Shown: one piece after another, positions 233 through 37,273 of the stretch
How positions within the stretch are numbered: the stretch's first letter is position 1
How the letters are laid out: each line of letters starts with the position of its first letter
NCBI GenBank assembly: GCA_902605035.1
Contig: CACLBB010000010.1
Location: 1-45,857, forward strand
Direction: 5' to 3'
DNA length: 45,857 nt
From: an uncultured Pelagibacteraceae bacterium
GTDB taxonomy: Bacteria > Pseudomonadota > Alphaproteobacteria > Pelagibacterales > Pelagibacteraceae
Translations under genes and position numbers: made by a program
Notes under the pieces: model-generated
What the model saw: only the letters and a program-made list of their open reading frames with translations
Databases searched by the model: none
What the model was told of the DNA's origin: nothing

Positions 233-802
233 TTAAGGTTCTAATTCAATATCCCAATATAAAAAGTCCATCCAACTTTCATGAAGAAAATTAGGTGGAA
301 AATTTCTGCCATTTTTGTGTAAATCTTCAACTGTAGGTGCATAAGGTCTATTTGTTAATTTTAAATCACAGTGTTCGTAAAGCTTCCCGCCCTTCTTAAC
401 ATTACAGTCAGAACAAGCAGTAACAACATTATTCCAGTCTGTAAGACCTCCTTTTGATTTTGGCAACAAATGATCGAATGTTAAATCTTTTTTATCACCG
501 CAATATTGGCAAGTAAATTTATCTCTAAGAAAAACATTAAATCTTGTAAAGTTTGGATTTTTGGATGGTTGTACAAAATTTTTTAATGCTATTACGCTTG
601 GTAAATTCATTTCAAATGATGGACTTCTAATTTTTCTTTTATAGTTTGAAACAATACTTACTCTATTCAAAAAAACTGACTTCACCGCATCTTGCCAACA
701 CCAAAGTGATAAAGGATAATAGCTAAGAGGTCTAAAGTCTGCGTTAAGAACTAGCGCAGGACATTTTTCTAAAGGAACTTTATTTACCGAAGAAATTATC
801 AT
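233..802 (-). CDS. HNH endonuclease
   Basis: The 189-residue protein has a C-terminal HNH nuclease domain (about residues 88-145). C98-x2-C101 and C130-x2-C133 form a zinc-binding frame, and D110-H111 in TFDHLLPKSKGG supplies the metal-binding His. The N-terminal 85 residues (NADFRPLSYYPLSLW region) match the extension seen in a widespread single-copy proteobacterial HNH family whose biological role is not established. There is no partner methylase or toxin-antitoxin gene next to it, so nothing in the context suggests restriction or a mobile intron. The start at 802 places the N-terminal extension intact. Its stop directly abuts the coq7 stop on the other strand. Confidence 0.85.
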   Translation of the reverse strand: MIISSVNKVPLEKCPALVLNADFRPLSYYPLSLWCWQDAVKSVFLNRVSIVSNYKRKIRSPSFEMNLPSVIALKNFVQPSKNPNFTRFNVFLRDKFTCQYCGDKKDLTFDHLLPKSKGGLTDWNNVVTACSDCNVKKGGKLYEHCDLKLTNRPYAPTVEDLHKNGRNFPPNFLHESWMDFLYWDIELEP

Positions 803-826
803 ACTTAAAGCTAACTGAAACAGAAA

Positions 827-832
827 ATTATA
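827..832 (-). promoter_or_regulatory. Possible -10 element of the HNH nuclease gene
   Basis: The minus strand reads TATAAT here, a perfect -10 hexamer, 24 nt before the HNH start codon in the 64-bp gap between the HNH gene and the esterase gene. No good -35 is seen 16-18 bp upstream. The same gap contains a 7-bp inverted repeat (TATCAAG 831-837, CTTGATA 859-865) with a 21-nt loop that overlaps the hexamer. In such A+T-rich DNA a TATAAT can occur by chance. Confidence 0.3.
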
Positions 833-866
833 TCAAGTTATAATTATGTTCCATGTAGCTTGATAA

Positions 867-1520
867 CTAGTATAAATGTTTTTTAATAAATTGAAGGCCA
901 AAACTCGAGCCTTCAGTTGGGATTCTGTGTTCACAATTTTTAAATATTTTCGTTTCTATGTTGTAATTATTTCTGGTGAAAAAATCTTTGGCCTCCAATA
1001 AACCTTCGATAGTAACAACTTGGTCTGCATCGCCATGCATTAATATTATATTCGGTCTAGATATTATATTTTTACCTAAATGCCCTTTATCAATAATTTT
1101 TCCAGAGTAACCAATTATTGAATTAATCTTATCCTTTCTTTTAATTCCTGTTTGAAGAGCGATCATGCATCCTTGGCTAAAACCTCCAATAATAATTTGG
1201 TCGGAAGATAAATTATTTTGTAGCTTAACCTCATCAATAAGTTTATTTAATTTATCTTCTGCAACTAAAGACTTAGATAAAATTTGCTCTGGTGTTTGGT
1301 CTATCAAATCAAACCACTGAAATCCTGATGGACTTGCAGCACATTTTTCAGGAGCATCTGGACAAATAAATATCGTATCTGGTAAATGCGCTTTCCAATA
1401 ACTTGCTAAAAGTGAAATATCTTTTCCATCTCCACCATATCCGTGGCAAAGTATTACAGCATTTTTAGGTTTTGCTTTTGACAAAGGATCTAAAATGGTA
1501 GTATTCAATGAGTAGTTCAT
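867..1520 (-). CDS. Alpha/beta-hydrolase, carboxylesterase/lysophospholipase family
   Basis: This 217-residue protein matches the short phospholipase/carboxylesterase family (YpfH-like). It starts with a core strand and turn ILCHGYGGDG (residues 23-32). The nucleophile motif GFSQG places Ser115, HGDAD places Asp166, and CEHRIP places His198, giving a complete Ser-Asp-His triad in the usual order. No signal peptide is seen, so it is probably cytosolic. The family hydrolyses short acyl esters or lysophospholipids; the substrate cannot be told from sequence. It is divergent from the HIG1-domain gene with only 19 bp between start codons. The triad makes the family call secure, the precise activity not. 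Confidence 0.85.
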   Translation of the reverse strand: MNYSLNTTILDPLSKAKPKNAVILCHGYGGDGKDISLLASYWKAHLPDTIFICPDAPEKCAASPSGFQWFDLIDQTPEQILSKSLVAEDKLNKLIDEVKLQNNLSSDQIIIGGFSQGCMIALQTGIKRKDKINSIIGYSGKIIDKGHLGKNIISRPNIILMHGDADQVVTIEGLLEAKDFFTRNNYNIETKIFKNCEHRIPTEGSSFGLQFIKKHLY

Positions 1521-1539
1521 AACAATTGTTTAATTATAA

Positions 1540-1740
1540 ATGTCAGAGTTTCTTTTTAATTTTATTGGTTTCACTTTACTGGGTGCTGTTGCTATAGTTC
1601 TAGTCATGGGTATTTATACTTTATTTAAAGGTGGAAGTACTAGTAAAAAATATTCCAACAAATTGATGCAGCTTAGAGTTTTGTTACAATTTTTAGCTGT
1701 TATTGTTTTGGTTTTAATGGCTTATTTTTTTAAAAATTAA
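1540..1740 (+). CDS. HIG1-domain small inner-membrane protein
   Basis: A 66-residue protein with two predicted membrane segments (about residues 6-28 and 46-64) joined by a basic loop. The segment SNKLMQLRVLLQ (about 39-50) is the hallmark of bacterial HIG1 (hypoxia-induced gene 1) proteins, in which a NKLMRLRVLLQ-type motif precedes the second helix. In mitochondria and some alphaproteobacteria HIG1 proteins bind cytochrome oxidase or respiratory supercomplexes, so a role near the respiratory chain is a fair inference, not shown here. The stop codon interlocks with that of the convergent TlpA-like gene (shared TTAA at 1737-1740). Despite its small size the family motif and two-helix layout support a real gene. 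Confidence 0.85.
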   Translation: MSEFLFNFIGFTLLGAVAIVLVMGIYTLFKGGSTSKKYSNKLMQLRVLLQFLAVIVLVLMAYFFKN

Positions 1741-2264
1741 ATATACTTTTTTAATATCTCTATAAAATTTTTATCCATAAAATCAATTTCACCTACGACT
1801 CTCCCAAACTCTTTTCCATTTTTATCGATTAGAATGCTTGTAGGTAAACCTCTCATTTTAAATTGTTTTACTAATTTTAACTCTGGGTCAAAATATATAT
1901 CCAGACTTAGAACTCCAATAAATTTAAAAAAGTCTTGAGCTTTGAGTTTATTAGGTTTTTCCATATTTATGGCGTAAACCTTTATTTCGGGATATTTATG
2001 GGTAAGATTTTCTAAAGAAGGCATTTCTCTTCTGCAAGGTGCGCACCAAGTAGCCCAGAAATTAAGGATCATTATATTGCCTTGTTTATTAGTTAGATCC
2101 ACGTTTTGAAGATTTAAATCTTTAAATTTTAATTCTTTAATTACCTTTGGTTTTTCATAAATAACTATGTTTTTTGAAAAATCATTGTCAGCAAAAACGT
2201 TTTTGCTGAACAAAAATACAAATATTATGTGAATATAGGTTTTAAAAGATTTACTAATTTTCAT
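1737..2264 (-). CDS. Periplasmic TlpA/ResA-like thiol-disulfide oxidoreductase
   Basis: The protein has 175 residues. An N-terminal signal peptide (hydrophobic about 9-20, likely cleavage after NVFA near residue 25) is followed by a thioredoxin fold. The redox site is W73-C74-A75-P76-C77 in FWATWCAPCRREMPS, and GLPTSILID further on provides the cis-proline loop. Such proteins act in the periplasm, commonly in reducing apocytochrome c or cytochrome oxidase assembly factors. The gene is divergent from argH (27 bp between start codons), an arrangement seen in other alphaproteobacteria where tlpA lies beside argH-lysA. Which TlpA/CcmG-type role it has cannot be decided from this window; no other cytochrome maturation gene is present. 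Confidence 0.87.
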   Translation of the reverse strand: MKISKSFKTYIHIIFVFLFSKNVFADNDFSKNIVIYEKPKVIKELKFKDLNLQNVDLTNKQGNIMILNFWATWCAPCRREMPSLENLTHKYPEIKVYAINMEKPNKLKAQDFFKFIGVLSLDIYFDPELKLVKQFKMRGLPTSILIDKNGKEFGRVVGEIDFMDKNFIEILKKYI

Positions 2265-2291
2265 ATTAATTTAAATTGAATAACATAGATT

Positions 2292-3680
2292 ATGGTAAAT
2301 AAAAATAAGACTGTTTGGTCAAATAGATTTAAAAGCTCGACTTCTAAATCCTTTCAAAGAATTGGGGCCTCAATAAACGTAGATAAAAGACTCTATGAAC
2401 AAGACATTTTTGCTTCAAAAATTCATACTCAAATGTTAATTAAGAAAAAAATTATACCTACTAAAGAAGGTAGAAAAATACTTAAAGGATTAGATCAAAT
2501 TAAAAGACAGATTAAAAAAGGCAAATTTATTTTTAAAGAAAAATTTGAGGATATCCATTTAAATATCGAAAAAAAATTATACGAAATAATTGGTGACTCA
2601 GCAGGTTATATGCACACTGCTAGATCAAGAAATGATCAAGTAGTTACTGATTTTAAGCTTTGGGTGAAAGACTCATCTCTAGTTTTGATTAAAGAATTAA
2701 ATTCATTAATGAAAAATATTGTAAGTAAAGCAGACAAAAATGTGAGTACTGTAATGCCAGGTTTTACTCATCTTAAAAATGCACAGCCAGTTTCTTTTGC
2801 GCATTATCTCTTGGCTTATTATGAAATGTTAAAAAGAGATAAGAAAAGATTTCAAAATAACTTAGAGTTAATTGATGAGTCTCCACTTGGAGCTGCAGCT
2901 TTATCAGGGACTTCTTATAATATAGACAGAAATTTTACATCTAAGAAATTAGGTTTTAAAAAGCCAACAGATAACTCAATTGATACAGTTTCTGATAGAG
3001 ATTTTGCGATAGACTTTCTTTACGCTTGTGCTGTATGTGCTATGCATTTATCAAGATTGGCTGAAGACTTCATAATATTAAATTCTGATGCTTATCAACT
3101 AATTAGTTTTAATGATAAAATGCTAACTGGTTCTTCTATTATGCCGCAAAAAAAGAATCCTGACCCTGCAGAACTTATTAGAGGAAGAACTGGAATTAAT
3201 TACGGAAAATTAAATTCTATTTTAACAATTATGAAAGGACTTCCAATTTCGTATTTTAAAGATTTACAAGACGACAAAGCCTTAGTATTTGATGGATTTG
3301 ATACTTTAAAAGATACTTTAATTATGAGCAGTGAATTAGTTAAAAATGTTAATCCAAACAAAACTAGAATGTCTAATATGGCAAAAACTGGATATACAAC
3401 TGCAACAGATTTTGCTGACTATCTAGTGAAAGATAAAAAACTATCTTTTAGAGAAGCTTATAAAGTATCATCAAAAATTGTTAATTATGCGGAGAAAAAT
3501 AAAAAAAATTTAGACGAATTAACTTTAAATGAGGTTAAAAAGTTTCATAAACACTTAGATAATAGTGTTTTAAAAATTTTTAATGTTAAAAACTCTATGA
3601 ATTCAAAAAAATCTTATGGAGGAACATCTGAAAGAAATATAAAAAATATGGTAAGAAAATATAAAAAGGAAATTAAATGA
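2292..3680 (+). CDS. argH: Argininosuccinate lyase
   Basis: ArgH splits argininosuccinate into arginine and fumarate, the last step of arginine synthesis, in the cytosol. The 462-residue length is normal for the family. It has the fumarase/aspartase superfamily signature GSSIMPQKKNPD at about residues 280-291, the helix with TARSRNDQ (substrate binding), and PGFTHLKNAQPV containing the catalytic His. The second conserved region reads SPLGAAALSGTSY. The stop overlaps the start of the downstream lipoprotein gene (ATGA at 3677-3680), so argH, the lipoprotein gene and lysA are very likely one transcription unit. Nothing is missing or broken. Confidence 0.97.
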   Translation: MVNKNKTVWSNRFKSSTSKSFQRIGASINVDKRLYEQDIFASKIHTQMLIKKKIIPTKEGRKILKGLDQIKRQIKKGKFIFKEKFEDIHLNIEKKLYEIIGDSAGYMHTARSRNDQVVTDFKLWVKDSSLVLIKELNSLMKNIVSKADKNVSTVMPGFTHLKNAQPVSFAHYLLAYYEMLKRDKKRFQNNLELIDESPLGAAALSGTSYNIDRNFTSKKLGFKKPTDNSIDTVSDRDFAIDFLYACAVCAMHLSRLAEDFIILNSDAYQLISFNDKMLTGSSIMPQKKNPDPAELIRGRTGINYGKLNSILTIMKGLPISYFKDLQDDKALVFDGFDTLKDTLIMSSELVKNVNPNKTRMSNMAKTGYTTATDFADYLVKDKKLSFREAYKVSSKIVNYAEKNKKNLDELTLNEVKKFHKHLDNSVLKIFNVKNSMNSKKSYGGTSERNIKNMVRKYKKEIK

Positions 3681-3787
3681 AATTTACAATTACTCTTATA
3701 ATGATAATGTTTATTTTAGCATCTTGTGGAAAAAAGTCAGATCCGCAATACCAAGGATCGATTAATAGTTTTGCAAAAATAATCTAA
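3677..3787 (+). CDS. Very small lipoprotein, LptM (YifL)-like
   Basis: A 36-codon gene begins at the ATGA overlap with the argH stop and ends at TAA 3785-3787, 3 bp before lysA. The product has a short basic start (MK), a hydrophobic stretch (about residues 5-15), and a lipobox L-A-S-C with the lipidated Cys at residue 17. CGKKSDPQYQ follows the lipobox. E. coli LptM (YifL), encoded just upstream of dapF-lysA and having CGLKGPLY after its lipobox, helps mature the LptD/LptE outer-membrane LPS translocon. Matching size, lipobox, Cys-Gly-x-Lys start and position next to lysA suggest homology. Only about 20 residues follow the Cys, so sequence similarity alone is weak. The translational overlap with argH argues that it is translated. 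Confidence 0.7.
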   Translation: MKFTITLIMIMFILASCGKKSDPQYQGSINSFAKII

Positions 3788-3790
3788 TAT

Positions 3791-5020
3791 ATGTCTTATA
3801 TAAGATATAAAAATAATAATCTATTTGTGGAGAGTGTCTCTGTAAGAAGATTAGCTTCAAAATTGAGTACTCCGTTTTATCTTTATTCTGAAGGTAATAT
3901 TATTAAAAATTATAAATCATTTTTAAGCAATTTCAAAAAATCTAACCCATTAATTTGTTTTTCGGTTAAAGCAAATTCGAATATTCAAATTTTAAAACTT
4001 TTAAAAAAAATGGGTTCAGGTGCAGATGTGGTGTCAGGAGGTGAATTACTTAAAGCTATAAAATCTGGTATAAAACCAAATAAAATTGTTTTCTCTGGTG
4101 TTGGTAAAACAGAAGATGAAATTAAATTAGCAATAAGAAAAAATATTTTATTAATAAATGTGGAGTCAGAAAATGAAGCTGTGCTGATCAATAAAATCGC
4201 AGCTAACTTAAAAAAAAAAATTGCCATTGGTATCAGACTGAATCCTGATATTAATGCTCCAACACATAAAAAAATTTCCACAGGTAAAGCGGAAGATAAA
4301 TTTGGTCTCTCAAAAACAAATTTAATTTCATTTTGCCTTAACATTAAAAAATTGAAAAATTTAAAACTCAATGCAATTAGCGTACATATTGGAAGCCAAA
4401 TATTAAATGAAAATCCTTTTAAAAAAACTTTAAAAGTTTTAGAGGAGATAATCAGAAAAACAAAAATTTATTTCAAGTTTGTAGATCTAGGTGGTGGATT
4501 CGGTATAGCATATAAAAAAAGTGACAGAAAAATAAATCTAAAAAGCTATTCAAATTTAGTAGGAAAATTTAAAAAAAAATATAAATGTAATATTATCTTT
4601 GAACCAGGACGGGCAATTTTAGGTAATACAGCTATTTTAGTAACTAAAGTTCAATATCTAAAAAAAGGTTCTAATAAAACATTTGCAATTTTAAATGCTG
4701 GTATGAATGATTTTATGAGAACTGCACTTTATGATGCTGTTCATAATATAATTCCAGTAATTAAGAATAGTAAAAAAAATAAAGGACCTTTAGAATTCGT
4801 CGGTCCAATATGCGAGACTACATGCAAATTTATTAAATATAATAAATACCAAAGATTAAAACAATCTGATTACGTTGCTATCTCAGATGTTGGAGCTTAT
4901 GGTGCTTCTTTATCTTCAAACTATAATACGAAACCTTTAATAGCAGAGATAATTATAAATAAGTCTAAAGCAAGAGTAATTAGAAAAAAACAGGATATAA
5001 AAAATTTGCTCAAACAATAA
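3791..5020 (+). CDS. lysA: Diaminopimelate decarboxylase
   Basis: LysA removes carbon dioxide from meso-diaminopimelate to make lysine and uses pyridoxal phosphate. The 409-residue protein shows the PLP lysine K60 in FSVKANSN, HIGSQI (about residues 199-204), the glycine-rich phosphate loop DLGGGFG, and EPGR at 271-274. Near the C-terminus it has the CETT and GAYGASLSSNYN segments expected of group IV decarboxylases. It lies directly behind the small lipoprotein gene and its stop overlaps the plsC start by one base (TAATG), so the run argH-lipoprotein-lysA-plsC is probably cotranscribed. Confidence 0.96.
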   Translation: MSYIRYKNNNLFVESVSVRRLASKLSTPFYLYSEGNIIKNYKSFLSNFKKSNPLICFSVKANSNIQILKLLKKMGSGADVVSGGELLKAIKSGIKPNKIVFSGVGKTEDEIKLAIRKNILLINVESENEAVLINKIAANLKKKIAIGIRLNPDINAPTHKKISTGKAEDKFGLSKTNLISFCLNIKKLKNLKLNAISVHIGSQILNENPFKKTLKVLEEIIRKTKIYFKFVDLGGGFGIAYKKSDRKINLKSYSNLVGKFKKKYKCNIIFEPGRAILGNTAILVTKVQYLKKGSNKTFAILNAGMNDFMRTALYDAVHNIIPVIKNSKKNKGPLEFVGPICETTCKFIKYNKYQRLKQSDYVAISDVGAYGASLSSNYNTKPLIAEIIINKSKARVIRKKQDIKNLLKQ

Positions 5021-5727
5021 TGCAATTTATAAGATCTTTTTTATTTACTATATTATTTTATTTCACTTTAATACTAGTTTTTATTATAGCTATACCAACT
5101 TTGATTTTGCCGAATAAAGCTACTTTAATTTGTGGAAAGATATTGGCTCATTTAATTATATTTTTATTAAAGTTTGTATTGAGAGTTAAAGTTACTTTTT
5201 CTGGAATGGAAAACTTAAAAAAAAATGAAAGATTTTTTGTTGCAAGTGCACATCAATCTTTACTTGAAACTTTTATACTCCAAGCGCCTTTACAATATCC
5301 TATTTTTATTCTTAAAAAGGAACTTTTTAAAATCCCATTATTTGGCTGGTATTTAAAAAAAATTGGCTCAATTGATATCGTAAGAGACAAAACTACAAAA
5401 GATAATTTAAATTTTTTTGACAAAATTAAAAATAATGTTGAAATTAGTAAAAGACCTCTATTAATTTTTCCTCAAGGGACTAGAGTAAAATTTGGTGAAA
5501 AACTGCCATTTAAAAAAGGGGCAGGTAGAATTTACGAATTATTAAATTTACCTTGTGTTCCCGTTGCATTAAATACTGGTAAAGTTTGGCCGAAAAATAG
5601 TTTTTTAAAATATAATCATGACATTGAGGTATCTTTCTTAGAACCTATCGAGCCTGGAAAAGATAAAAATGTTTTTTTAAATGATTTAGAAACAAAAATT
5701 TATTCCTCTATTGATAATTTGAATTAA
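5020..5727 (+). CDS. plsC: 1-acyl-sn-glycerol-3-phosphate acyltransferase
   Basis: The product (235 residues) is a membrane-bound acyltransferase that adds the second fatty acid to lysophosphatidic acid in phospholipid synthesis. Hydrophobic helices occupy about residues 5-55. Motif I, normally H-x4-D, is HQSLLE here (H78, E83), so the acidic partner is Glu instead of Asp. The second substrate motif is FPQGTR (150-155) in place of FPEGTR, a variant I recall from other alphaproteobacteria. The gene starts by a one-base stop/start overlap with lysA and its stop interlocks with that of tyrA (TTAA 5724-5727). Substrate specificity cannot be read from sequence. Confidence 0.9.
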   Translation: MQFIRSFLFTILFYFTLILVFIIAIPTLILPNKATLICGKILAHLIIFLLKFVLRVKVTFSGMENLKKNERFFVASAHQSLLETFILQAPLQYPIFILKKELFKIPLFGWYLKKIGSIDIVRDKTTKDNLNFFDKIKNNVEISKRPLLIFPQGTRVKFGEKLPFKKGAGRIYELLNLPCVPVALNTGKVWPKNSFLKYNHDIEVSFLEPIEPGKDKNVFLNDLETKIYSSIDNLN

Positions 5728-29410: not shown

Positions 29411-30286
29411 TTAGCCATTAAGTTTATGCAAAAGTGTTTTTCCTATATCCGCTGGCGACTTTGAAATAGTAATTCCCGCTGATTTCATAATCTCTATTTT
29501 ACCATCGGCACCACCTTTTCCCCCAGAAATTATAGCTCCAGCATGCCCCATTCTTCTTCCTGGAGGTGCTGTAAGACCAGCTATAAAGCCTACCATTGGT
29601 TTTTTAACTTTCTCTCTTTTTAGAAATTCAGATGCTTCTTCTTCTGCTGAACCACCTATTTCTCCGATCATTACTATTGATTTAGTTTCATCATCTTTTA
29701 AAAAAAGTTCAAGGCAATCTATAAAATTTGTTCCATTTATTGGATCTCCTCCGATGCCAATACAAGTTGATTGTCCCATCCCATTTGTAGAAGTTTGGGC
29801 TACTGCTTCATAAGTTAACGTACCTGATCTGGAGACAATTCCTACGTTTCCCTTTTTGTGAATACTTCCCGGCATTATGCCTATCTTACATTCATTCGGA
29901 GTAATAATTCCTGGGCAATTTGGCCCAATCAACCTTGATTTATTTTTTTTTAACTCTTTTTTGACTTTTAACATATCAATTACTGGTATTCCTTCTGTGA
30001 TACATACTATTAATTCTATCCTAGCATCTATTGCTTCAATAATCGCATCAGCTGCAAACTTTGGTGGTACATAGATCATAGTAGCATTAGCATTTGTTTT
30101 ATCCTTTGCCTCTTTAACAGTATCAAATACTGGAAGACCTAGATGTTTTTGACCACCTTTTTTAGGTGTGACTCCTCCAACGAGTTGGGTACCATATTTA
30201 ATCGCCTGTTCAGAATGAAAAGTTCCATGAGTCCCTGTAAAACCTTGGCAAATAACTTTTGTATTTTTATTTACTAGTACTGACAT
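29411..30286 (-). CDS. sucD: Succinyl-CoA synthetase alpha subunit
   Basis: SucD binds CoA and carries the phosphohistidine intermediate in converting succinyl-CoA to succinate with nucleotide synthesis. The 291-residue protein begins with [15 protein letters not shown] (CoA-binding Rossmann fold), then [18 protein letters not shown], and [10 protein letters not shown] with the active His248. All are diagnostic. The start follows directly after the sucC stop with no intervening base. Confidence 0.97.
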
Positions 30287-31447
30287 TTATTTAATTGCCT
30301 CTACTATTTTTTTCGCTGCGTCATTTAGGTCAGATGCAGATAATATTTTCAAATTCGAATTATCTAATATTTCTTTTCCTTCTTTAAAATTCGTTCCAGC
30401 TAATCTCACTACTAAAGGGACAGACAAATTGATTTGTTTGGCAGCCTCTATAACTCCATGCGCAAGAACATCACATCTCATTATTCCTCCGAATATATTA
30501 ATCAAAATTCCTTTTACATTCTTATCTGAAAGAATTAGTTTAAAAGCAGCCGCAACTTTTTCTTTAGATGCTCCTCCACCCACATCTAAAAAATTTGCTG
30601 GTTCTTTTCCATAAAGTTTAATTATATCCATGGTAGCCATAGCTAAACCTGCCCCATTGACCATACAGCCAATTGAGCCCTCTAGTTTTATGTAAGCTAG
30701 ATCATGCTTGCTGGCTTCAATTTCGGATGGGTTTTCCTCATTTAAGTCTCTGAGTTTTAAAATTTCCGGTCTTCTAAAAATTGCATTATCGTCAAAGTTC
30801 ATTTTTGCATCTAAACACAAAATTTTTCCTGCTTTAGTAGTTATTAAGGGGTTAATTTCTATTAAACTGGCATCTTTTTGTATCAAAATTTTATAAAGTG
30901 CTTTTACTAACTCTGATGCTTCTTTTTTTTGAGTTTCATTAAATTCAAAGGAATATAAAATCTTTTCTATATCTTTTTCATTGATTTCATTAGTTAATTC
31001 TATTTTTGTTGTAAGTATCTTTTTTGGATTTTCAGCTGCTACTTTTTCTATATCCATTCCTCCCTCTCTACTGCTTATAAAAGCTATCTTAGAACTTTCT
31101 CTATCCACTAAGCATGACAAATAAAATTCTTTATCAATTTCTGAAGCCTCTTCGATATAAAGTCTTTTTACTTTTTTACCTTCTGGTCCAGTTTGATGAG
31201 TGATGAGCACTTTTCCCATCATTTTTTTCGCTTCTTGTTCTAATTCAGTAATATTTTTGACTAATTTTACACCTCCGGCTTTTCCTCTTCCTCCTGCATG
31301 GATTTGTGCTTTTAAAACAAATTTATCACTTTTTAAATTCGAGATTTTTTCTTTAATTTGATCAACAGATAAAATTGTTACTCCATTAGAAACTGGTGCT
31401 CCAAATTCTTTAAGTATTTCTTTAGCCTGATGTTCGTGTATATTCAT
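30287..31447 (-). CDS. sucC: Succinyl-CoA synthetase beta subunit
   Basis: SucC is the ATP-grasp subunit that binds nucleotide and pairs with SucD. From the start chosen at 31447 the protein has 386 residues beginning MNIHEHQAKEILKEFGAPV, the usual family N-terminus. An in-frame ATG at 31468 would add seven unrelated residues and lies in a TATGAT -10-like hexamer (minus strand 31469-31464), which favours the inner start. QIHAGGRGKAGGVK, EINPL and INIFGGIMRCD motifs are present. It is the first gene after the three-gene interruption, so the suc operon needs its own promoter in the gap to the divergent glycosyltransferase gene. Confidence 0.95.
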   Translation of the reverse strand: MNIHEHQAKEILKEFGAPVSNGVTILSVDQIKEKISNLKSDKFVLKAQIHAGGRGKAGGVKLVKNITELEQEAKKMMGKVLITHQTGPEGKKVKRLYIEEASEIDKEFYLSCLVDRESSKIAFISSREGGMDIEKVAAENPKKILTTKIELTNEINEKDIEKILYSFEFNETQKKEASELVKALYKILIQKDASLIEINPLITTKAGKILCLDAKMNFDDNAIFRRPEILKLRDLNEENPSEIEASKHDLAYIKLEGSIGCMVNGAGLAMATMDIIKLYGKEPANFLDVGGGASKEKVAAAFKLILSDKNVKGILINIFGGIMRCDVLAHGVIEAAKQINLSVPLVVRLAGTNFKEGKEILDNSNLKILSASDLNDAAKKIVEAIK

Positions 31448-31488
31448 TTTAGTTGCTATTACTATCATAAAATTTAGATTATTCCATT

Positions 31489-32364
31489 ATGAAAGCAAAA
31501 ATTATAATTTTAACTCCTGTTTATAATGATTGGAAAAATTTAACTAAGCTTTTAGCTCAAATTGACGTTATATTTAAAAAAGATATAAAAAAAAAATTTG
31601 ATTTAATTGTTGTAAATGATTCTTCAACTGAAAAGTTTAATCACAAAAAGTTAAAATTAGCTACAATAAATAAACTAACTTTAATTTCTCTGTCAAGAAA
31701 TGTTGGTAGTCAAAGAGCATTGGCTATAGGAATACAACATATAAAAAAAACATATAAAAAAAATTACAAAACAATTGTAATAGATTCAGATGGACAGGAT
31801 AATCCCAGGGGAATAAAAATGATGATTGACAAAAGTAAAAAAAAACCAAAATTTTCTATTGTGGTTAATCGTGGACAAAGAAAAGAACCTTTTTGGTTTA
31901 GATTTTTTTATAAGATTTATTGTATTTTAATTAATTTGTTTGCTTTTAAAAAAGTCGAATTTGGAAATTATTGCCTGCTTAACTCTGGAGATATCAATAA
32001 AATTTATTATAAAACTGATCTTCATAGTGCTTTTCCTCCCACAATATCTATTAATATAAAAAAAATTTTACATATTACTTTAGATAGAGAAAAAAGATTT
32101 ACTGGAACATCAAAAATGAATTTTTTAGGATTAGTATTTCATGCTTTTAAAGTTTTTTCAGTTTTTCGTTACAGAATATTATTTTCTACTACCATTTATT
32201 TATTTGTTTGTTACTTTCTTTTTAATGAATATAAGAATATCAATCTATTTTATGTCATTTCTACAATTTTATTTATATTCAATTGTGTGAACTTTTTCAT
32301 TTCATACTTTAGTAATAAATCTACTAAAGACAATTTTAAAAACTATAAAATTAAAAATTATTAG
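31489..32364 (+). CDS. Family 2 glycosyltransferase with C-terminal membrane helices
   Basis: A 291-residue GT-A fold enzyme, like dolichyl-phosphate mannose synthase and GtrB. It starts IIILTPVYNDWKNL, then LIVVNDSS and SRNVGSQRALAIG, and has the nucleotide-sugar and metal-binding DSDGQD with D99-x-D101. About two hydrophobic helices follow at residues 228-246 and 253-274. Such proteins move a sugar from a nucleotide donor to polyprenyl phosphate or a lipid-linked acceptor on the inner membrane face. The sugar is not predictable. It is on the opposite strand to the surrounding TCA genes and shares a TTAG stop-codon overlap with the convergent membrane protein gene, a probable partner using the lipid-linked sugar. 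Confidence 0.85.
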   Translation: MKAKIIILTPVYNDWKNLTKLLAQIDVIFKKDIKKKFDLIVVNDSSTEKFNHKKLKLATINKLTLISLSRNVGSQRALAIGIQHIKKTYKKNYKTIVIDSDGQDNPRGIKMMIDKSKKKPKFSIVVNRGQRKEPFWFRFFYKIYCILINLFAFKKVEFGNYCLLNSGDINKIYYKTDLHSAFPPTISINIKKILHITLDREKRFTGTSKMNFLGLVFHAFKVFSVFRYRILFSTTIYLFVCYFLFNEYKNINLFYVISTILFIFNCVNFFISYFSNKSTKDNFKNYKIKNY

Positions 32365-33968
32365 TTACATTTATTAAGTCTGATTGAATATAACATTTCA
32401 TTATATCTCTCTTTTTCAAAACAGTTACTATTTAATAAATTTTCGAAATTTATGGACCGAAATTCTTTAGGAAGACTTTCTACCAAATATATAATTTCAA
32501 TTTTTTTCCGTTTAACTTTATTATTAAATTTTTTGCTATACTCATCATAATATTTAAAATTAGTTGAGGCTGGAAATGTATTGTTTGGATAATACCATCT
32601 GTTAGGAATATTTAAATTTTCATCCATTATTAATGAAAAAAACTGATAATGTGTAATTAACATTTTTTCTCTGGGATCATCTTGTATTACTTTAATAGAC
32701 TCTTTTAGAAGTTTTATTTCAGAGCTTGGATCAGCATTGTACTTATTTGGAGTTATCCACTTGAGGTTTTTAAATTTAGAGCTTAAAAATTTTGCATCTA
32801 CTGCCTCTGAAAGATTAACATTTTGTAAATCTATAAACTTTCTTTTTTCATTATAAACAAGATGATATTTGAAAGTTGAAAATAATATGAGAGCAATTGA
32901 TAGTAATTTTATCTTATCTTTCATTTTAAATTGTTCAAATTGATCTAACTGTAAAAGAAAAAGGCCGCCTAAAATAGGTATTAATGAGAATATAAATGTT
33001 TGGTTAGCTGTTATAATTTGATGAAATATGAAACTTAGTGAACAAAAAAAAATGAAAATGTTAATTACAATTTTTTTATCAAAAGTAAATTTTTTAAAAC
33101 TCTTTTTGATATAAAGTAACATTAATATTATATTTGCAAACACGAAGAAAAAAATAAATTTAAAGTGTCCTAGCGTTCCTCTTAAAGTCATCTTATTAAC
33201 CATTTTAGCACCCTCAAAGGCAGTCTCTTCGCTTAAAATTCTACCTCTTCCGACCTCAAGTGGAAACAAAATTAGTTGAGAAATAAAATCTTTCAATGTT
33301 ACTCCAGTAATAACAAAATACAAAATTAGTATAAATAAAGAAACTACTGCTCCAGCAAGAAAATAAATAAAAAAATTTCTATCAAAAAAAATAAAATAGA
33401 TTAATAAAAAAAATATTATCATTAAATTAATTATTCCAGAAGGTAATTGCATACTTAAAAAGGATAAAAGCATTAACAAAGGTAATATAAACCAAAGTTT
33501 TTTTTCATCTTTATAAACAGCAAGATAGAAAACTAATAAAGAAATTATGCTTAATATTAATGAATGCTGATATGGAAAAGGAGTCCCGACCACTGGGTAA
33601 CATAAAATTGCTACACAACAAGATAAAATAAAATTGGAGAAAATATTTTTGTTAAATCGATTTAAAAAATAAAAAAAAAATAATGTAATAATTACATTAA
33701 AACTAGATGCATGAAATACATAAGAATTCCAATTTAATCCGAAAATATAAAAAAAAAGCGCTTGAGTATAATCAACAAAAATACCTGAAATGACCCAGAA
33801 GTCTTTAATCGGGTGTTGTCCCTCAGTGATATAGTATGCACTATCAAAAAAACTAAAAGTATCTATTGGATATAAGCCTTTATTTGCATAATAATAATTT
33901 ATATAAAAAGCTAAAAAACCTAGTAAAATTTTTAAAACTAATTGAGAAGGAACTGATTTAATATTCAT
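32361..33968 (-). CDS. Polytopic membrane protein resembling GT-C glycosyltransferases
   Basis: A 535-residue protein with roughly ten or more hydrophobic helices between residues 10 and 370 and a C-terminal soluble part of about 160 residues, probably periplasmic. The first outer loop carries D36, D42 and D56 in the pattern PIDTFSFFDSAYY ... KDFW ... VDYTQALFFYIFG. This resembles the acidic first loop of polyprenyl-phosphate-sugar dependent GT-C enzymes (GT39/ArnT-like). Sequence conservation in this group is low, so the call is by architecture. It is convergent with the GT2 gene and divergent from the methyltransferase gene (41-bp gap), and is the most A+T-rich-looking and Phe/Ile/Asn-rich protein in the window. 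An O-antigen-polymerase or flippase-type function cannot be excluded. Confidence 0.6.
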   Translation of the reverse strand: MNIKSVPSQLVLKILLGFLAFYINYYYANKGLYPIDTFSFFDSAYYITEGQHPIKDFWVISGIFVDYTQALFFYIFGLNWNSYVFHASSFNVIITLFFFYFLNRFNKNIFSNFILSCCVAILCYPVVGTPFPYQHSLILSIISLLVFYLAVYKDEKKLWFILPLLMLLSFLSMQLPSGIINLMIIFFLLIYFIFFDRNFFIYFLAGAVVSLFILILYFVITGVTLKDFISQLILFPLEVGRGRILSEETAFEGAKMVNKMTLRGTLGHFKFIFFFVFANIILMLLYIKKSFKKFTFDKKIVINIFIFFCSLSFIFHQIITANQTFIFSLIPILGGLFLLQLDQFEQFKMKDKIKLLSIALILFSTFKYHLVYNEKRKFIDLQNVNLSEAVDAKFLSSKFKNLKWITPNKYNADPSSEIKLLKESIKVIQDDPREKMLITHYQFFSLIMDENLNIPNRWYYPNNTFPASTNFKYYDEYSKKFNNKVKRKKIEIIYLVESLPKEFRSINFENLLNSNCFEKERYNEMLYSIRLNKCN

Positions 33969-34009
33969 AAAGACTTTATTATCATGAATTCATTATTAGC
34001 AAAATCACA

Positions 34010-34810
34010 ATGTTAAAAATAAAAGATAAAATTAGATTTAAACACTCAGAAAATCTTATGAAACAGGAGGGAGATGTCATGCGCTCAATAGATGACATAA
34101 ATAAAAACAAAAACTTATATATCTTGTTGAAAGAACGATTTAGCTGGATGAATAATTTTATTGATCAAAACGCTAAAGGTATCGAAGTAGGGGCTGCAGC
34201 TGGATTCTCTAAAAAATTTATCAAATCTAAAAATTTTAAAATAAGTGATTTTTCTAATCATAGTCATTTAGATCATAAAAATATTGATGCTCAGGCTACT
34301 GGATTTAAAAATGAGGAGTTTGATTTTGTCATTTCGTCTAATATGATTCATCATCTTCCATTTCCAGTAAAATTTTTTAATGAAATGCATAGAATATTAA
34401 AGAAAGGTGGAAAATTAATTATATTTGATGCACATTGTTCAGTTTTATTACAGTTAGTTTTAATCCTTATGAAACACGAAGGCTTTGATTTTACTAAAAA
34501 TGTTTGGAGTTTAAACGAGCCTTCAACTGGTATTGATGATCCGTGGTCTGGGAACAGTGCTATTCCATATTTAATATTTAACGAAAAAAATGAGTTTCAA
34601 AAAAAATTAGGAGAGAAATTTAATTTGAAATACTTGAAATTATGTGAATGTTTGCTTTTTTTAAATTCAGGTGGAGTAACCTCTAAAACTTTTTATTTTC
34701 CTCTAAATTTTTTTTTCTTAAACATTCTTAAATACTTAGATAAATTTCTTACTTTATTATTCCCTAAAATATTTGCACTAGGTTACAAAATTGTATTAGA
34801 AAAAAAATAA
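34010..34810 (+). CDS. Class I SAM-dependent methyltransferase
   Basis: The protein has 266 residues. Motif I is GIEVGAAAG (57-65), and FDFVISSNMIHHLPFPVKFF (about 104-123) and LKKGGKLIIFDAH form the usual post-motif strands, placing it in the methyltransferase-11-like superfamily. A hydrophobic C-terminal region with FYFPLNFFFLNI and LTLLFPKIFALGYKIVL suggests membrane association. Substrate is unknown; beside two glycosyltransferase-like genes, a sugar or lipid-linked glycan methylation is a reasonable guess. It is on the plus strand, ending 2 bp from the convergent mdh stop. Unlike its neighbours on both sides it has no role in the TCA cycle. Confidence 0.78.
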   Translation: MLKIKDKIRFKHSENLMKQEGDVMRSIDDINKNKNLYILLKERFSWMNNFIDQNAKGIEVGAAAGFSKKFIKSKNFKISDFSNHSHLDHKNIDAQATGFKNEEFDFVISSNMIHHLPFPVKFFNEMHRILKKGGKLIIFDAHCSVLLQLVLILMKHEGFDFTKNVWSLNEPSTGIDDPWSGNSAIPYLIFNEKNEFQKKLGEKFNLKYLKLCECLLFLNSGGVTSKTFYFPLNFFFLNILKYLDKFLTLLFPKIFALGYKIVLEKK

Positions 34811-34812
34811 GT

Positions 34813-35778
34813 TTAAGCTAATTTAGGATCAATTTTTTTTGCTGCATCAAATAATTGTTTAACCGCGTCAATCGATTTCGAAAAGTTACTGTTTTCTTCG
34901 TCTGTTAAATCTAATTCGACAATCTTTTCTACTCCACTTTTTCCAATTATTACTGGAACTCCAGCATAAATTTCTTTAAATCCGTATTCACCAGTTAAAT
35001 ATGCTGCACATGGTAATTGTTTTTTTAAATCTTTTAAATAACTTTCAGCCATTTCAACACCCGAAGCAGCTGGGGCATAAAAGGCTGACCCTTTTTCTAA
35101 AAATTTTACAATTTCAGCACCCCCTTTTTTTGTTCTTTCTACAATTTCTTCTAATTTTTCTTTTTGAATAATGCCTTCCTTCACCAGTTCCTTAATTTTT
35201 TTTCCATCTACCTCGGTTGAACCTAACATGGCTACCATGCTATCACCATGACCACCTAATACAAAAGATTTTATTTTTTGAACGGGTAATTTTAATTCTT
35301 GGGATAAAAAATATATAAATCTTGATGAGTCTAAAATTCCTGCCATTCCAACAATTTTATTTTTGGGCATTCCTGAATATTTTTGTAAAGCCATTACAAT
35401 TACATCTAGTGGATTAGTTATACATATTACAAAAGCGTCAGGAGAAGTTTTTTTTATACCCTCAGCAACTTGTTTTATAATCTTTAAATTTATTCCTAGT
35501 AAATCATCTCTTGTCATGCCAGGCTTTCTTGGAACTCCTGCTGTAACTATTATTACATCTGAATTTTTGGTATCTTCATAATTGTCTGTTCCGATTAAAT
35601 CAATATTAAATTTATTAACGGGTGAGGATTGTGCAATATCTAAAGCCTTCCCTTTAGCTATGCCTGCAGCAACATCAAATAATACAACATTTCCTAACTC
35701 TTTTAATGCAATTAAATGTGCAAGAGTTCCGCCAATTTGACCAGCTCCAATTAATGTAATCTTTTTTTTCATAGTCAA
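34813..35778 (-). CDS. mdh: Malate dehydrogenase
   Basis: Mdh oxidises malate to oxaloacetate with NAD. The 321-residue protein is of the LDH-like MDH type usual in alphaproteobacteria. It has the dinucleotide motif GAGQIGGT near the N-terminus, the substrate loop [15 protein letters not shown] (Arg at the position that selects malate over lactate), [10 protein letters not shown], and the catalytic His in GGHGDSM. It lies 1 bp behind mmsA. In many alphaproteobacteria mdh is followed directly by sucCD; here three unrelated genes separate them. Confidence 0.96.
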
Positions 35779-35779
35779 A

Positions 35780-37273
35780 TTATTTCATAGTTGGCATAAC
35801 AAATTCGGGGTCTGATCTTAAACCAGATGGCCATCTTGATGTTATTGTTTTTAATTTAGTATAAAACCTAACTCCTTCAGGTCCATGCATATGCTGATCT
35901 CCAAATAGAGATCTTTTCCAGCCTCCAAAACTATGAAATGCCATTGGGACTGGGATTGGGATATTTATTCCAACCATTCCAATTTTGGCTTTATTCGAAA
36001 AAGTTCTTCCTGAGTCTCCGTCCCTAGTAAATATACTTACACCATTTCCAAATTCGTGATCATTTACTAATTGTAAAGCCTCATCGAAATTTTTTGCCCT
36101 TACAACTGATAATACAGGTCCAAATATCTCTTCCTTATAAATTCTCATTTTTGCTGTGACATGATCAAACAAACATCCACCGATGTAATATCCATTTTCA
36201 TAACCTTGAAGTTTTAAATTTCTTCCATCGACAATTAGTTTCGCTCCTTCTTTTTCTCCTATATCTACGTAATTTTTAACTTTTTCTAAATGCTCTTTAG
36301 TTACTAACGGTCCCATTTCTGATTTCTTATCCATGCCCGGACCCACTTTTAAAGTTTCTACTTTTTTTGCTAAGTTACTTACTAATTTATCACCAATGTT
36401 ACCAACCGCTACAGCAACTGATTGAGCCATACATCTTTCACCTGCAGATCCGTAAGCAGCTCCCATTAATCCGTTAACTGCTTGATCTAAATCACAATCT
36501 GGCATTACAACACAATGATTTTTAGCTCCGCCTAGAGCTTGAACTCTTTTTTCGTTTTTTGCACAATTTTCATAAATATACTTAGCTATAGGTGTAGAAC
36601 CAACAAAACTCATCGCTACTACTTCCTTATGATTTATAAGTCCGTCTACTGCTTCTTTGCCTCCATTTATAATATTAAAAACACCATCAGGTAAACCAGC
36701 TTCTTTTAGAAGTTTTGCCAATTTCATTGAGCATGAGGGATCTTTTTCAGAAGGTTTCAAAACAAAAGTATTTCCGCAGGCAATTGCCATAGGAAACATC
36801 CACATAGGAACCATGGCTGGAAAATTAAAAGGAGTTACTCCAGCGCAGACACCTAGGGGCTGTCTGATAGACCAACTATCTACATTAGAACCTACATTTT
36901 CTGTATACTCTCCTTTAAGCATTTGTGGAATTCCACACGCATACTCAACAACTTCTAATCCTCGTATTAAAGAGCCTTTAGCGTCTTCATAAACTTTACC
37001 ATGCTCAGAAACAATTATTTTTGTCAGCTCATCTGAATTTTTCTCAATAAGTTCTTTAAATTTAAACATAACCCTGGCTCTTTGTAATGGTGGGGTATTC
37101 GACCAAGATAAAAATGCGTCTTTTGCACTTTTCACCGCTTCATTTACATCTTTGTTATTTGCTAATCTAACTTCTGCTGTTTGGTCACCTGTAGCAGGAT
37201 TAAAAACTTTACCTTTTTCAGCGGAACTTCCAGAAAAGGTTTTTCCATCAATAAAATGTTCTATAATATTCAT
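35780..37273 (-). CDS. mmsA: CoA-acylating methylmalonate-semialdehyde dehydrogenase
   Basis: The enzyme converts methylmalonate or malonate semialdehyde, CoA and NAD to propionyl-CoA or acetyl-CoA plus carbon dioxide. The 497-residue aldehyde dehydrogenase has [17 protein letters not shown] (family-typical), [12 protein letters not shown] (NAD site), [14 protein letters not shown], and the catalytic Cys281 in GERCMAQ. MmsA proteins lack the general-base Glu of ordinary aldehyde dehydrogenases, and GGAKNH replaces the usual ELGG motif here. It works in valine, inositol or pyrimidine breakdown, or in acrylate and 3-hydroxypropionate use. Its place between sdhB and mdh ties it to carbon entry into the TCA cycle. 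Confidence 0.93.

Follow-up and report, generated by a model that had tools for sequence, protein, structure and literature searches.

The mdh-sucC gap in a 45,857-nucleotide stretch of an uncultured Pelagibacteraceae bacterium (contig CACLBB010000010.1 of assembly GCA_902605035.1, forward strand; hereafter the window) is filled by three genes, and we think it probable that this gap works as a slot for exchangeable glycan-decoration genes, a cassette whose products would make and tailor a polyprenyl-phosphate sugar and then transfer it to a glycan at the cell surface. The three intact open reading frames (ORFs) span 31489-34810, as the sequence-only reading of the window had already described, and we name them after their families: F2, a family 2 glycosyltransferase (GT2; 31489..32364, + strand); F1, a 535-aa protein with the fold of the C-type glycosyltransferases (GT-C; 32361..33968, - strand) and the near-constant gene of the locus; and F5, a class I S-adenosylmethionine (SAM) methyltransferase (34010..34810, + strand). 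Computation across related genomes brought out the slot, the modularity of its content, the co-divergence of F1 with F5, F6, F2 and other families, the incongruence of F1 with the flanking genes, a signature in the flanks and the GT-C fold of F1.

The window's genus is coded here as g1 and its genome as G000, and other genera are coded likewise (g6, g9 and so on). Outside g1, the two genes are separated by 3-95 bp in 115 of 116 genomes from nine other genera with both matches on one contig; the sole exception, G209 of g9, has a gap of 3379 bp occupied by the window's three families, ordered as in the window. Within g1 we searched 121 genomes and found mdh in 90 and sucC in 91 (E <= 1e-60), of which 68, including the window, had both on one contig. 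Sixty-four of these 68 complete intervals are filled (922-8480 bp; overall median 3306 bp) and four are empty, with gaps of 3, 9, 9 and 14 bp. Where mdh and sucC fell on different contigs, the genome was excluded from the interval counts, in which long cassettes may be under-represented; another 13 partial loci, in 12 genomes, were read as well. In the 64 filled intervals, a median of 42 bp lies between the sucC match and the first called ORF, whichever its family. The slot thereby keeps the same place and differs in content among relatives, as a replacement flexible genomic island does.

On a tree of mdh plus sucC, the rows with an island group together to the exclusion of six outgroup rows (support 98). 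The empty intervals were considered as the ancestral state inside g1 and rejected in that role, since G153/G122, G133 and G109 nest within the island-bearing clade; they are apparently secondary losses, in two or three events, and none of the four genomes is among the 88 of 121 in which F1 was found by profile (E <= 1e-15; draft assemblies). The one complete interval of g9, that of G209, also nests inside the island-bearing clade of g1, which is why the insertion is placed at or before the base of g1 and g9. The history of the locus was apparently one insertion at or before the genus base, followed by repeated swapping and losses. A later, variable insertion had been proposed from the sequence; its variability is borne out by the adjacency of the two genes outside the genus and by contents that differ among close relatives, but a single late event does not fit, as G209 shares it. 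The placement of G209 (locus L199) inside g1 raises either a question of genus boundary or a transfer of the whole region.

The window belongs to a 1.006-Mb draft assembly of 30 contigs. A binning error cannot create the cassette, because in dozens of separate assemblies it is found within a contig and flanked by two core genes. The genomes of the relatives mostly carry AG-/AH- isolate names, which we take to denote single-cell genomes, and some titles say metagenome-assembled genome. The recurrence of the interval's gene families in the same interval of related genomes places their occurrence beyond chance.

What fills the slot is modular. The 64 filled intervals and 13 partial loci contain 237 ORFs of at least 70 aa, which fall into 18 families after fragment merging (the fragment clusters F14, F21 and F22 were counted as F1, confirmed by profile, and F19 as F3, by eye), each annotated from one scanned representative. 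A variable cassette would be contradicted if every relative carried these three genes and their trees followed the species tree; the opposite was found. F1 is absent from only one of the 64 filled complete intervals, that of G025, which holds F11 only; in three of the other 63 (G012, G102, G124) it was recovered by profile, ORF list or tblastn alone. F1 fragments also occur at contig ends in G107 (C17), G001 (C12) and G045 (C23). Every family is confined to one strand (one of the 18 is single-copy), and 45 of the 50 family pairs that co-occur at least twice keep one order, the exceptions being F1/F5 (16:1), F1/F6 (13:1), F3/F7 (6:2), F4/F7 (2:2) and F5/F13 (1:3).

Counting ORFs of the partial loci as well, the accompanying families are F3, a PMT_2-like membrane protein (27 ORFs); F2 (25); F4, a protein of 87 aa (20); the methyltransferases F5 (17), F6 (14), F7 of the FkbM type (12), F11, by a sub-cut-off match (5), F13 (4) and F17 (2); the aminotransferases F8, DegT (9), and F18, class III (2); F9, a GMC-like flavin adenine dinucleotide (FAD) oxidoreductase by a sub-cut-off match (9); F10, a GNAT protein (7); F12, a glucose/sorbosone dehydrogenase (4); F15, a DprE1-like FAD oxidase (3); F16, which gave no family match and presumably has the look of a formyltransferase (3); and F20, a short-chain dehydrogenase/reductase (SDR; 1). 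The 87-aa F4 protein (for example L071:3186-3446:+) adjoins F3 or an F3 fragment in 20 of its 20 occurrences; it gave weak sub-cut-off Pfam matches only, and no GtrA match in Pfam.

Cassettes appear to have moved between hosts. Distances and trees were computed for 64 genomes (63 of g1 plus G209), as a check on gene trees of the kind suggested by the sequence-only reading: the distances of mdh and sucC correlate with each other at 0.59, and those of F1 with mdh and sucC at -0.04 and -0.08. In approximately unbiased (AU) tests, five of six core sister pairs were rejected as F1 sisters (p < 1e-4), and the sixth, G000 with G107, was already together on the F1 tree. The F1 tree requires fewer changes of presence than the mdh+sucC tree for F8 (1 versus 7), F9 (1 versus 7), F5 (4 versus 11), F6 (5 versus 11), F7 (4 versus 9), F10 (3 versus 5) and F2 (8 versus 12); the numbers are nearly equal for F3 (13 and 14), F4 (12 and 14) and F11 (2 and 2). 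Distances point the same way, with rho to F1 versus core of 0.89 versus 0.29 for F5, 0.82 versus -0.17 for F6, 0.57 versus -0.11 for F2, 0.56 versus -0.15 for F8 and 0.58 versus -0.07 for F9. The presence of the tailoring genes thus seems to track F1 more than the host.

The flanks of the site bear a signature as well. Among 15 sister pairs whose cassettes differ, nucleotide identity in the 300 bp beside the site averages 5.7 points less than farther off, on both sides; in eight same-cassette pairs the mean difference is +0.5 on the mdh side and +0.2 on the sucC side, and the contrast between the two sets has p values of 0.0003 (mdh side) and 0.009 (sucC side). Together with the gene-tree conflict, this drop would fit exchange through homologous recombination within the flanking mdh and sucC genes, at a sampling of one genome per species.

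Several results weigh against the proposed exchangeable cassette. The AU sister pairs were hand-picked after the cassettes were known, and the core tree, made quickly, leaves 34 of its 72 inner branches open. By nearest-neighbour agreement F1 cannot be told apart from the core genes (mdh/sucC 14, mdh/F1 16 and sucC/F1 15 of 64). F3 distances track neither F1 (rho 0.14) nor the core (0.04), and those of F7 track both about equally (0.49, 0.45). The presence of F2, F3, F5, F11 and F16 is clustered on the core tree (0, 2, 14, 1 and 24 of 1000 shuffles as low, respectively), which suggests some inheritance with the host. As for the flanks, no drop is seen in 1 of the 15 different-cassette pairs on the mdh side and 3 of 15 on the sucC side, individual same-cassette pairs show drops of 3 to 5 points, the same-cassette pairs are closer on average and have less room for a drop, and several of the pairs are weakly supported on the core tree.

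A rival reading is purely vertical inheritance, in which a single large ancestral cassette diverged rapidly and lost different genes in different lineages, with no exchange between species. Losses from one long array would leave the fixed strands and mostly fixed order that we see, the single island-bearing clade agrees with it, as does the core-tree signal of F2, F3, F5 and F11, and the seven same-cassette sister pairs having F1 are all F1 sisters as well, from which vertical inheritance at short range follows. But F1 conflicts with the core sister pairs and has a rho near zero with the flanking genes, F8 and F9 each change once on the F1 tree but seven times on the core tree, and flank identity drops where cassettes differ, so that we regard vertical inheritance alone as highly improbable.

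Physical linkage alone can give neighbouring genes a shared history, so that co-divergence at the mdh-sucC site is weaker functional evidence than pairing at a second site; for this reason, we turned to other chromosomal sites. Paralogues of F1 that share 35-39% identity with the mdh-sucC set occur at 15 loci beside complex I (nuo) genes (L207-L210, L216, L221-L228, L230 and L231), where an F5-F1 pair lies between the nuo genes and an epimerase/C-methyltransferase protein of ~848 aa; the nuo neighbours were confirmed by Pfam in L208 and recognised by the same gene-size pattern in the other loci. An F5-like gene is adjacent to and co-directional with F1 in 14 of 14 readable loci, L223 being cut by the contig end, and in one genome, G013 (L230), F1, F5 and F2 occur together at this second site. 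At a third site, beside rpoD and dnaG (by Pfam in L211, by gene sizes in the others), an F1 paralogue is found in L211-L213 and L229; here F5 adjoins F1 in only two of the four loci, a point on the other side of the balance. The window's three families thus recur as neighbours elsewhere in the chromosome. More distant F1 homologues (28-30%) were seen in g6 at another place, in L205 (G173), two genes from lepA, and in L206 (G182), adjoining an F2-like gene (32%).

These pairings bear on whether the slot is simply a neutral dumping ground, a tolerated insertion point at which genes sit together by linkage and share no pathway. F3 does assort nearly independently of F1, variable content and low G+C content are usual for dispensable islands, and 4 of the 68 genomes do without a cassette. 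A dumping ground would hardly keep F1 in almost every filled interval, nor strands fixed and order mostly so, nor bring F5 beside F1 and all three families together at another site; moreover, most of the families are glycosyltransferases, methyltransferases, aminotransferases and oxidoreductases, kinds that we read as common in glycan clusters. We consider neutral accumulation unlikely and retain the glycan-decoration cassette.

The nature of F1 had to be approached through its structure. F1 reaches no Pfam or NCBIfam cut-off, those of the ArnT/PMT sequence families included, and a profile of 48 rows matched no PDB sequence up to E 1. Its one Pfam match, a weak sub-cut-off hit to PF01757, would suggest an acyltransferase, which is ruled out by the fold. 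The AlphaFold2 model built from 48 sequences is of high quality (predicted local distance difference test, pLDDT, 90.9; predicted template modelling score, pTM, 0.92) and was aligned by VIA-align 2 with PMT (Z 17.6, 361 residues, root-mean-square deviation 4.3) and ArnT (Z 17.3, 421 residues, 5.3), followed by ALG9 (Z 16.7), DPY19 (16.1), oligosaccharyltransferases/PglB (~14-16) and Emb/Aft (~10.6-13.6); helical models may score Z ~14 through common arrangement, a level that the top rows exceed. By its modelled fold F1 is a GT-C enzyme, PMT/ArnT-like, for which we infer a polyprenyl-phosphate sugar as the donor type. In the 48 aligned F1 sequences D36 (at least 90%) and the invariant D56, between the predicted helices H8-28 and H63-76, would be candidates for the conserved acidic residue that GT-C enzymes have in the first periplasmic loop. 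The sequence-only reading had called F1 a GT-C-like membrane protein, and the model agrees; it had likewise recognised the GT2 protein and the methyltransferase, both backed by domain matches. F1 appears to be a new GT-C sequence family lacking a Pfam or NCBIfam model that it reaches, and seemingly an uncommon one outside g1: 13 of 147 genomes match order-wide, three of those outside g1 (E <= 1e-5), and class-wide only 2 of 240, the window's own genome and a distant one.

The fold matches many GT-C families about equally and so names neither sugar nor acceptor, which counts against any precise version of our proposal. One such version is protein glycosylation, with F1 as an oligosaccharyltransferase- or PMT-like enzyme decorating secreted or outer-membrane proteins and not lipopolysaccharide (LPS). 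Foldseek placed oligosaccharyltransferase chains on top (3.1e-6), and PMT comes first by VIA-align 2; but ArnT ties with PMT, the oligosaccharyltransferase rows are lower (13.6 to 15.9) and the size of F1 is that of ArnT. PglB has a large soluble domain, which F1 lacks. We give protein glycosylation a modest chance, and prefer LPS over protein as the acceptor as a guess.

F2 contains PF00535 (4.5e-11), its profile matches the PDB sequences of sll0501 (7.7e-23), ArnC (8.9e-16) and dolichol-phosphate mannose (DPM) synthase (2.5e-9), and D44, D99 and D101 are invariant among 10 sequences; the protein has 291 aa with hydrophobic C-terminal segments. Homology thus assigns it to the GT2 polyprenyl-phosphate glycosyltransferases (GtrB/ArnC/DPM synthase), with predicted donor and lipid acceptor. 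The GtrB-like sll0501 and ArnC make polyprenyl-phosphate sugars. F5 (266 aa) contains PF08241 (1.2e-12), and its model (pLDDT 74, moderate) has a class I methyltransferase fold (Z up to 13.5), so that domain and predicted fold both mark it as a class I SAM methyltransferase; many methyltransferases tie in the structural comparison, which points to no particular substrate.

The simplest pathway is suggested by the company that the GT-C transferase keeps, namely the GtrB/ArnC-like F2 and the DprE1-like F15. At the inner leaflet, F2 would attach a sugar to polyprenyl phosphate, F5 would then methylate the lipid-linked sugar (presumably the sugar itself or its carrier), the lipid-linked sugar would flip, and F1, acting from the periplasm, would pass the sugar to an acceptor at the surface, for which LPS or some other envelope glycan is most likely. 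In other cassettes F5 is replaced or joined by FkbM or other methyltransferases, by the DegT aminotransferase with the FAD oxidoreductase and GNAT, by the DprE1-like oxidase with the SDR, or by the class III aminotransferase. As F1 changes together with the tailoring enzymes, each cassette may be a set of enzymes matched to the synthesis and transfer of a single donor, and cassettes may pass between species by homologous recombination in the flanking TCA genes, for which no integrase would be needed. A small glycan pathway had been proposed from the sequence, and it fits the fold, the families and the gene pairing; the sugar, the acceptor and the activities, like the chemistry, the direction of transfer and the role in surface variation, are what we infer from these. 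F2 is missing from many cassettes, an awkward fact for the pathway, since the lipid-linked sugar there must come from elsewhere.

F15 occurs in L061, L069 and L092, with an NCBIfam DprE1 match of 9.9e-26 that is far below the cut-off, and the SDR is also in L061. DprE1 acts on polyprenyl-phosphate ribose in mycobacteria, and F15, with the SDR in L061, hints at epimerised polyprenyl-phosphate sugars in SAR11.

Spacing in the window's cassette is minimal throughout. To the left lies sucC (30287..31447, - strand; Pfam ATP-grasp_2 and Ligase_CoA), the left flank of the exchangeable site, whose start is probably 31447 rather than 31468. It is separated from the divergent F2 gene by a 41-bp spacer (31448..31488), which would have to contain promoters for both genes. 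The F2 and F1 genes overlap by 4 bp, tail to tail, a second divergent spacer of 41 bp (33969..34009) separates F1 from F5, and 2 bp separate F5, again tail to tail, from mdh (34813..35778, - strand; Pfam Ldh_1_N and Ldh_1_C), the right flank, with its stop at 34813 and an ATG two codons inside the listed TTG start. The strand contrast noted in the sequence-only reading holds: from ~16.9 to 45.7 kb, all remaining ORFs of at least 100 aa are on the minus strand, except three (103-111 aa) antisense inside larger genes. The G+C content is ~22-27% in 1-kb windows over the cassette versus 33-36% in the adjoining windows on each side. As a sign of foreign origin, this was set aside, because low G+C content is general in SAR11 glycan islands, according to PMC11898729, and common to all families measured.

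We also agree that no integrase, tRNA or repeat marks the ends of the cassette: the window's ORFs and Pfam gave no integrase, ARAGORN gave no tRNA in the window, and a repeat scan of 30000-36300 found degenerate A+T-rich repeats only and no convincing terminal repeat. A prophage or integron was rejected on these absences, and a defence system because PADLOC gave only a methyltransferase-domain overlap for F5 (mad2, 9.7e-6).

A related idea is that a phage-borne serotype-conversion module of the GtrABC type is now resident at the site. F2 does match a GtrB-like O-antigen conversion family of PHROG (1.5e-18), and an F1-like fragment (17-502, 34% identical) lies at the edge of the IMG/VR contig L219, which carries phage genes at 649-5111 (MazG phrog_229, phrog_455); this contig could possibly be a phage vehicle for an F1-like gene, or a chimera, which limits its weight. 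The window's cassette lacks a GtrA gene as well as integrase and tRNA, F1 has no PHROG match and F5 matches generic methyltransferases only, and the viral scans confirmed a single relative of F1 and none of F5. A resident phage module is accordingly very unlikely, and we return to the exchangeable cassette in placing the locus among known systems.

The variable surface-glycan region named for SAR11 in PMC2217521 and PMC11898729 is hypervariable region 2 (HVR2), an O-chain biosynthesis cluster of 10-90 kb between the 16S-23S and 5S rRNA genes that forms replacement islands. The mdh-sucC cassette resembles it in being an exchangeable surface-glycan island of low G+C content that keeps its place in a streamlined genome (HVR2 23.8% versus 29.4% for the genome, as given in the paper; mdh-sucC cassettes 22.8% versus 32.7% in the two flanking genes, this analysis), but it sits between mdh and sucC, measures 0.9-8.5 kb, is built around a single GT-C gene whose modular neighbours mostly keep one order, and was seen at this site only in g1 and one g9 genome. 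With the ArnT/ArnC system, which transfers aminoarabinose to lipid A, it shares a GT-C transferase of similar fold and size, an ArnC-like GT2 and sugar-tailoring enzymes; unlike in that system, F1 has no ArnT/PMT sequence-family match, arn tailoring genes are absent and the acceptor is a conjecture. The GtrABC modules of phages and prophages likewise combine a GtrB-like GT2 with a variable membrane transferase that would set the product, but Pfam finds no GtrA flippase among the three ORFs of the interval, prophage genes are absent, and methyltransferases and other tailoring enzymes are added.

As in the replacement flexible genomic islands of PMC10734472, one conserved place holds versions of equivalent function that do not follow phylogeny; the HIMB59 islands treated there concern phosphate, and the text does not contain "malate", "succinyl" or "mdh". 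Further SAR11 islands of unknown function are mentioned, unnamed, in passages of PMC7318151, and the mdh-sucC island could be among them. No mdh-sucC variable region in SAR11 was found in the open-access literature, as represented by titles, abstract starts and passages. Flexible glycan islands are known already; what appears new here is the mdh-sucC site and the putative new GT-C sequence family at its core.

For the O-chain cluster, PMC11898729 argues, in its abstract, against a phage arms race. Whether the present locus is a second one for surface variation in SAR11, independent of that cluster, we put at even chances: a GT-C family co-diverging with interchangeable donor-tailoring enzymes would then form a combinatorial "sugar code" exchanged among species via TCA-cycle genes, and phages may be carriers of this transferase family as well. 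SAR11 bacteria are among the most abundant cells of the ocean. If the proposal is true, they would offer a small, modular and tractable locus whose neighbours predict donor chemistry, and a family, F1, that nature has already paired with dozens of neighbour genes; relatives in which the slot is naturally empty or filled would allow a test of what keeps surface sugars variable in streamlined bacteria.

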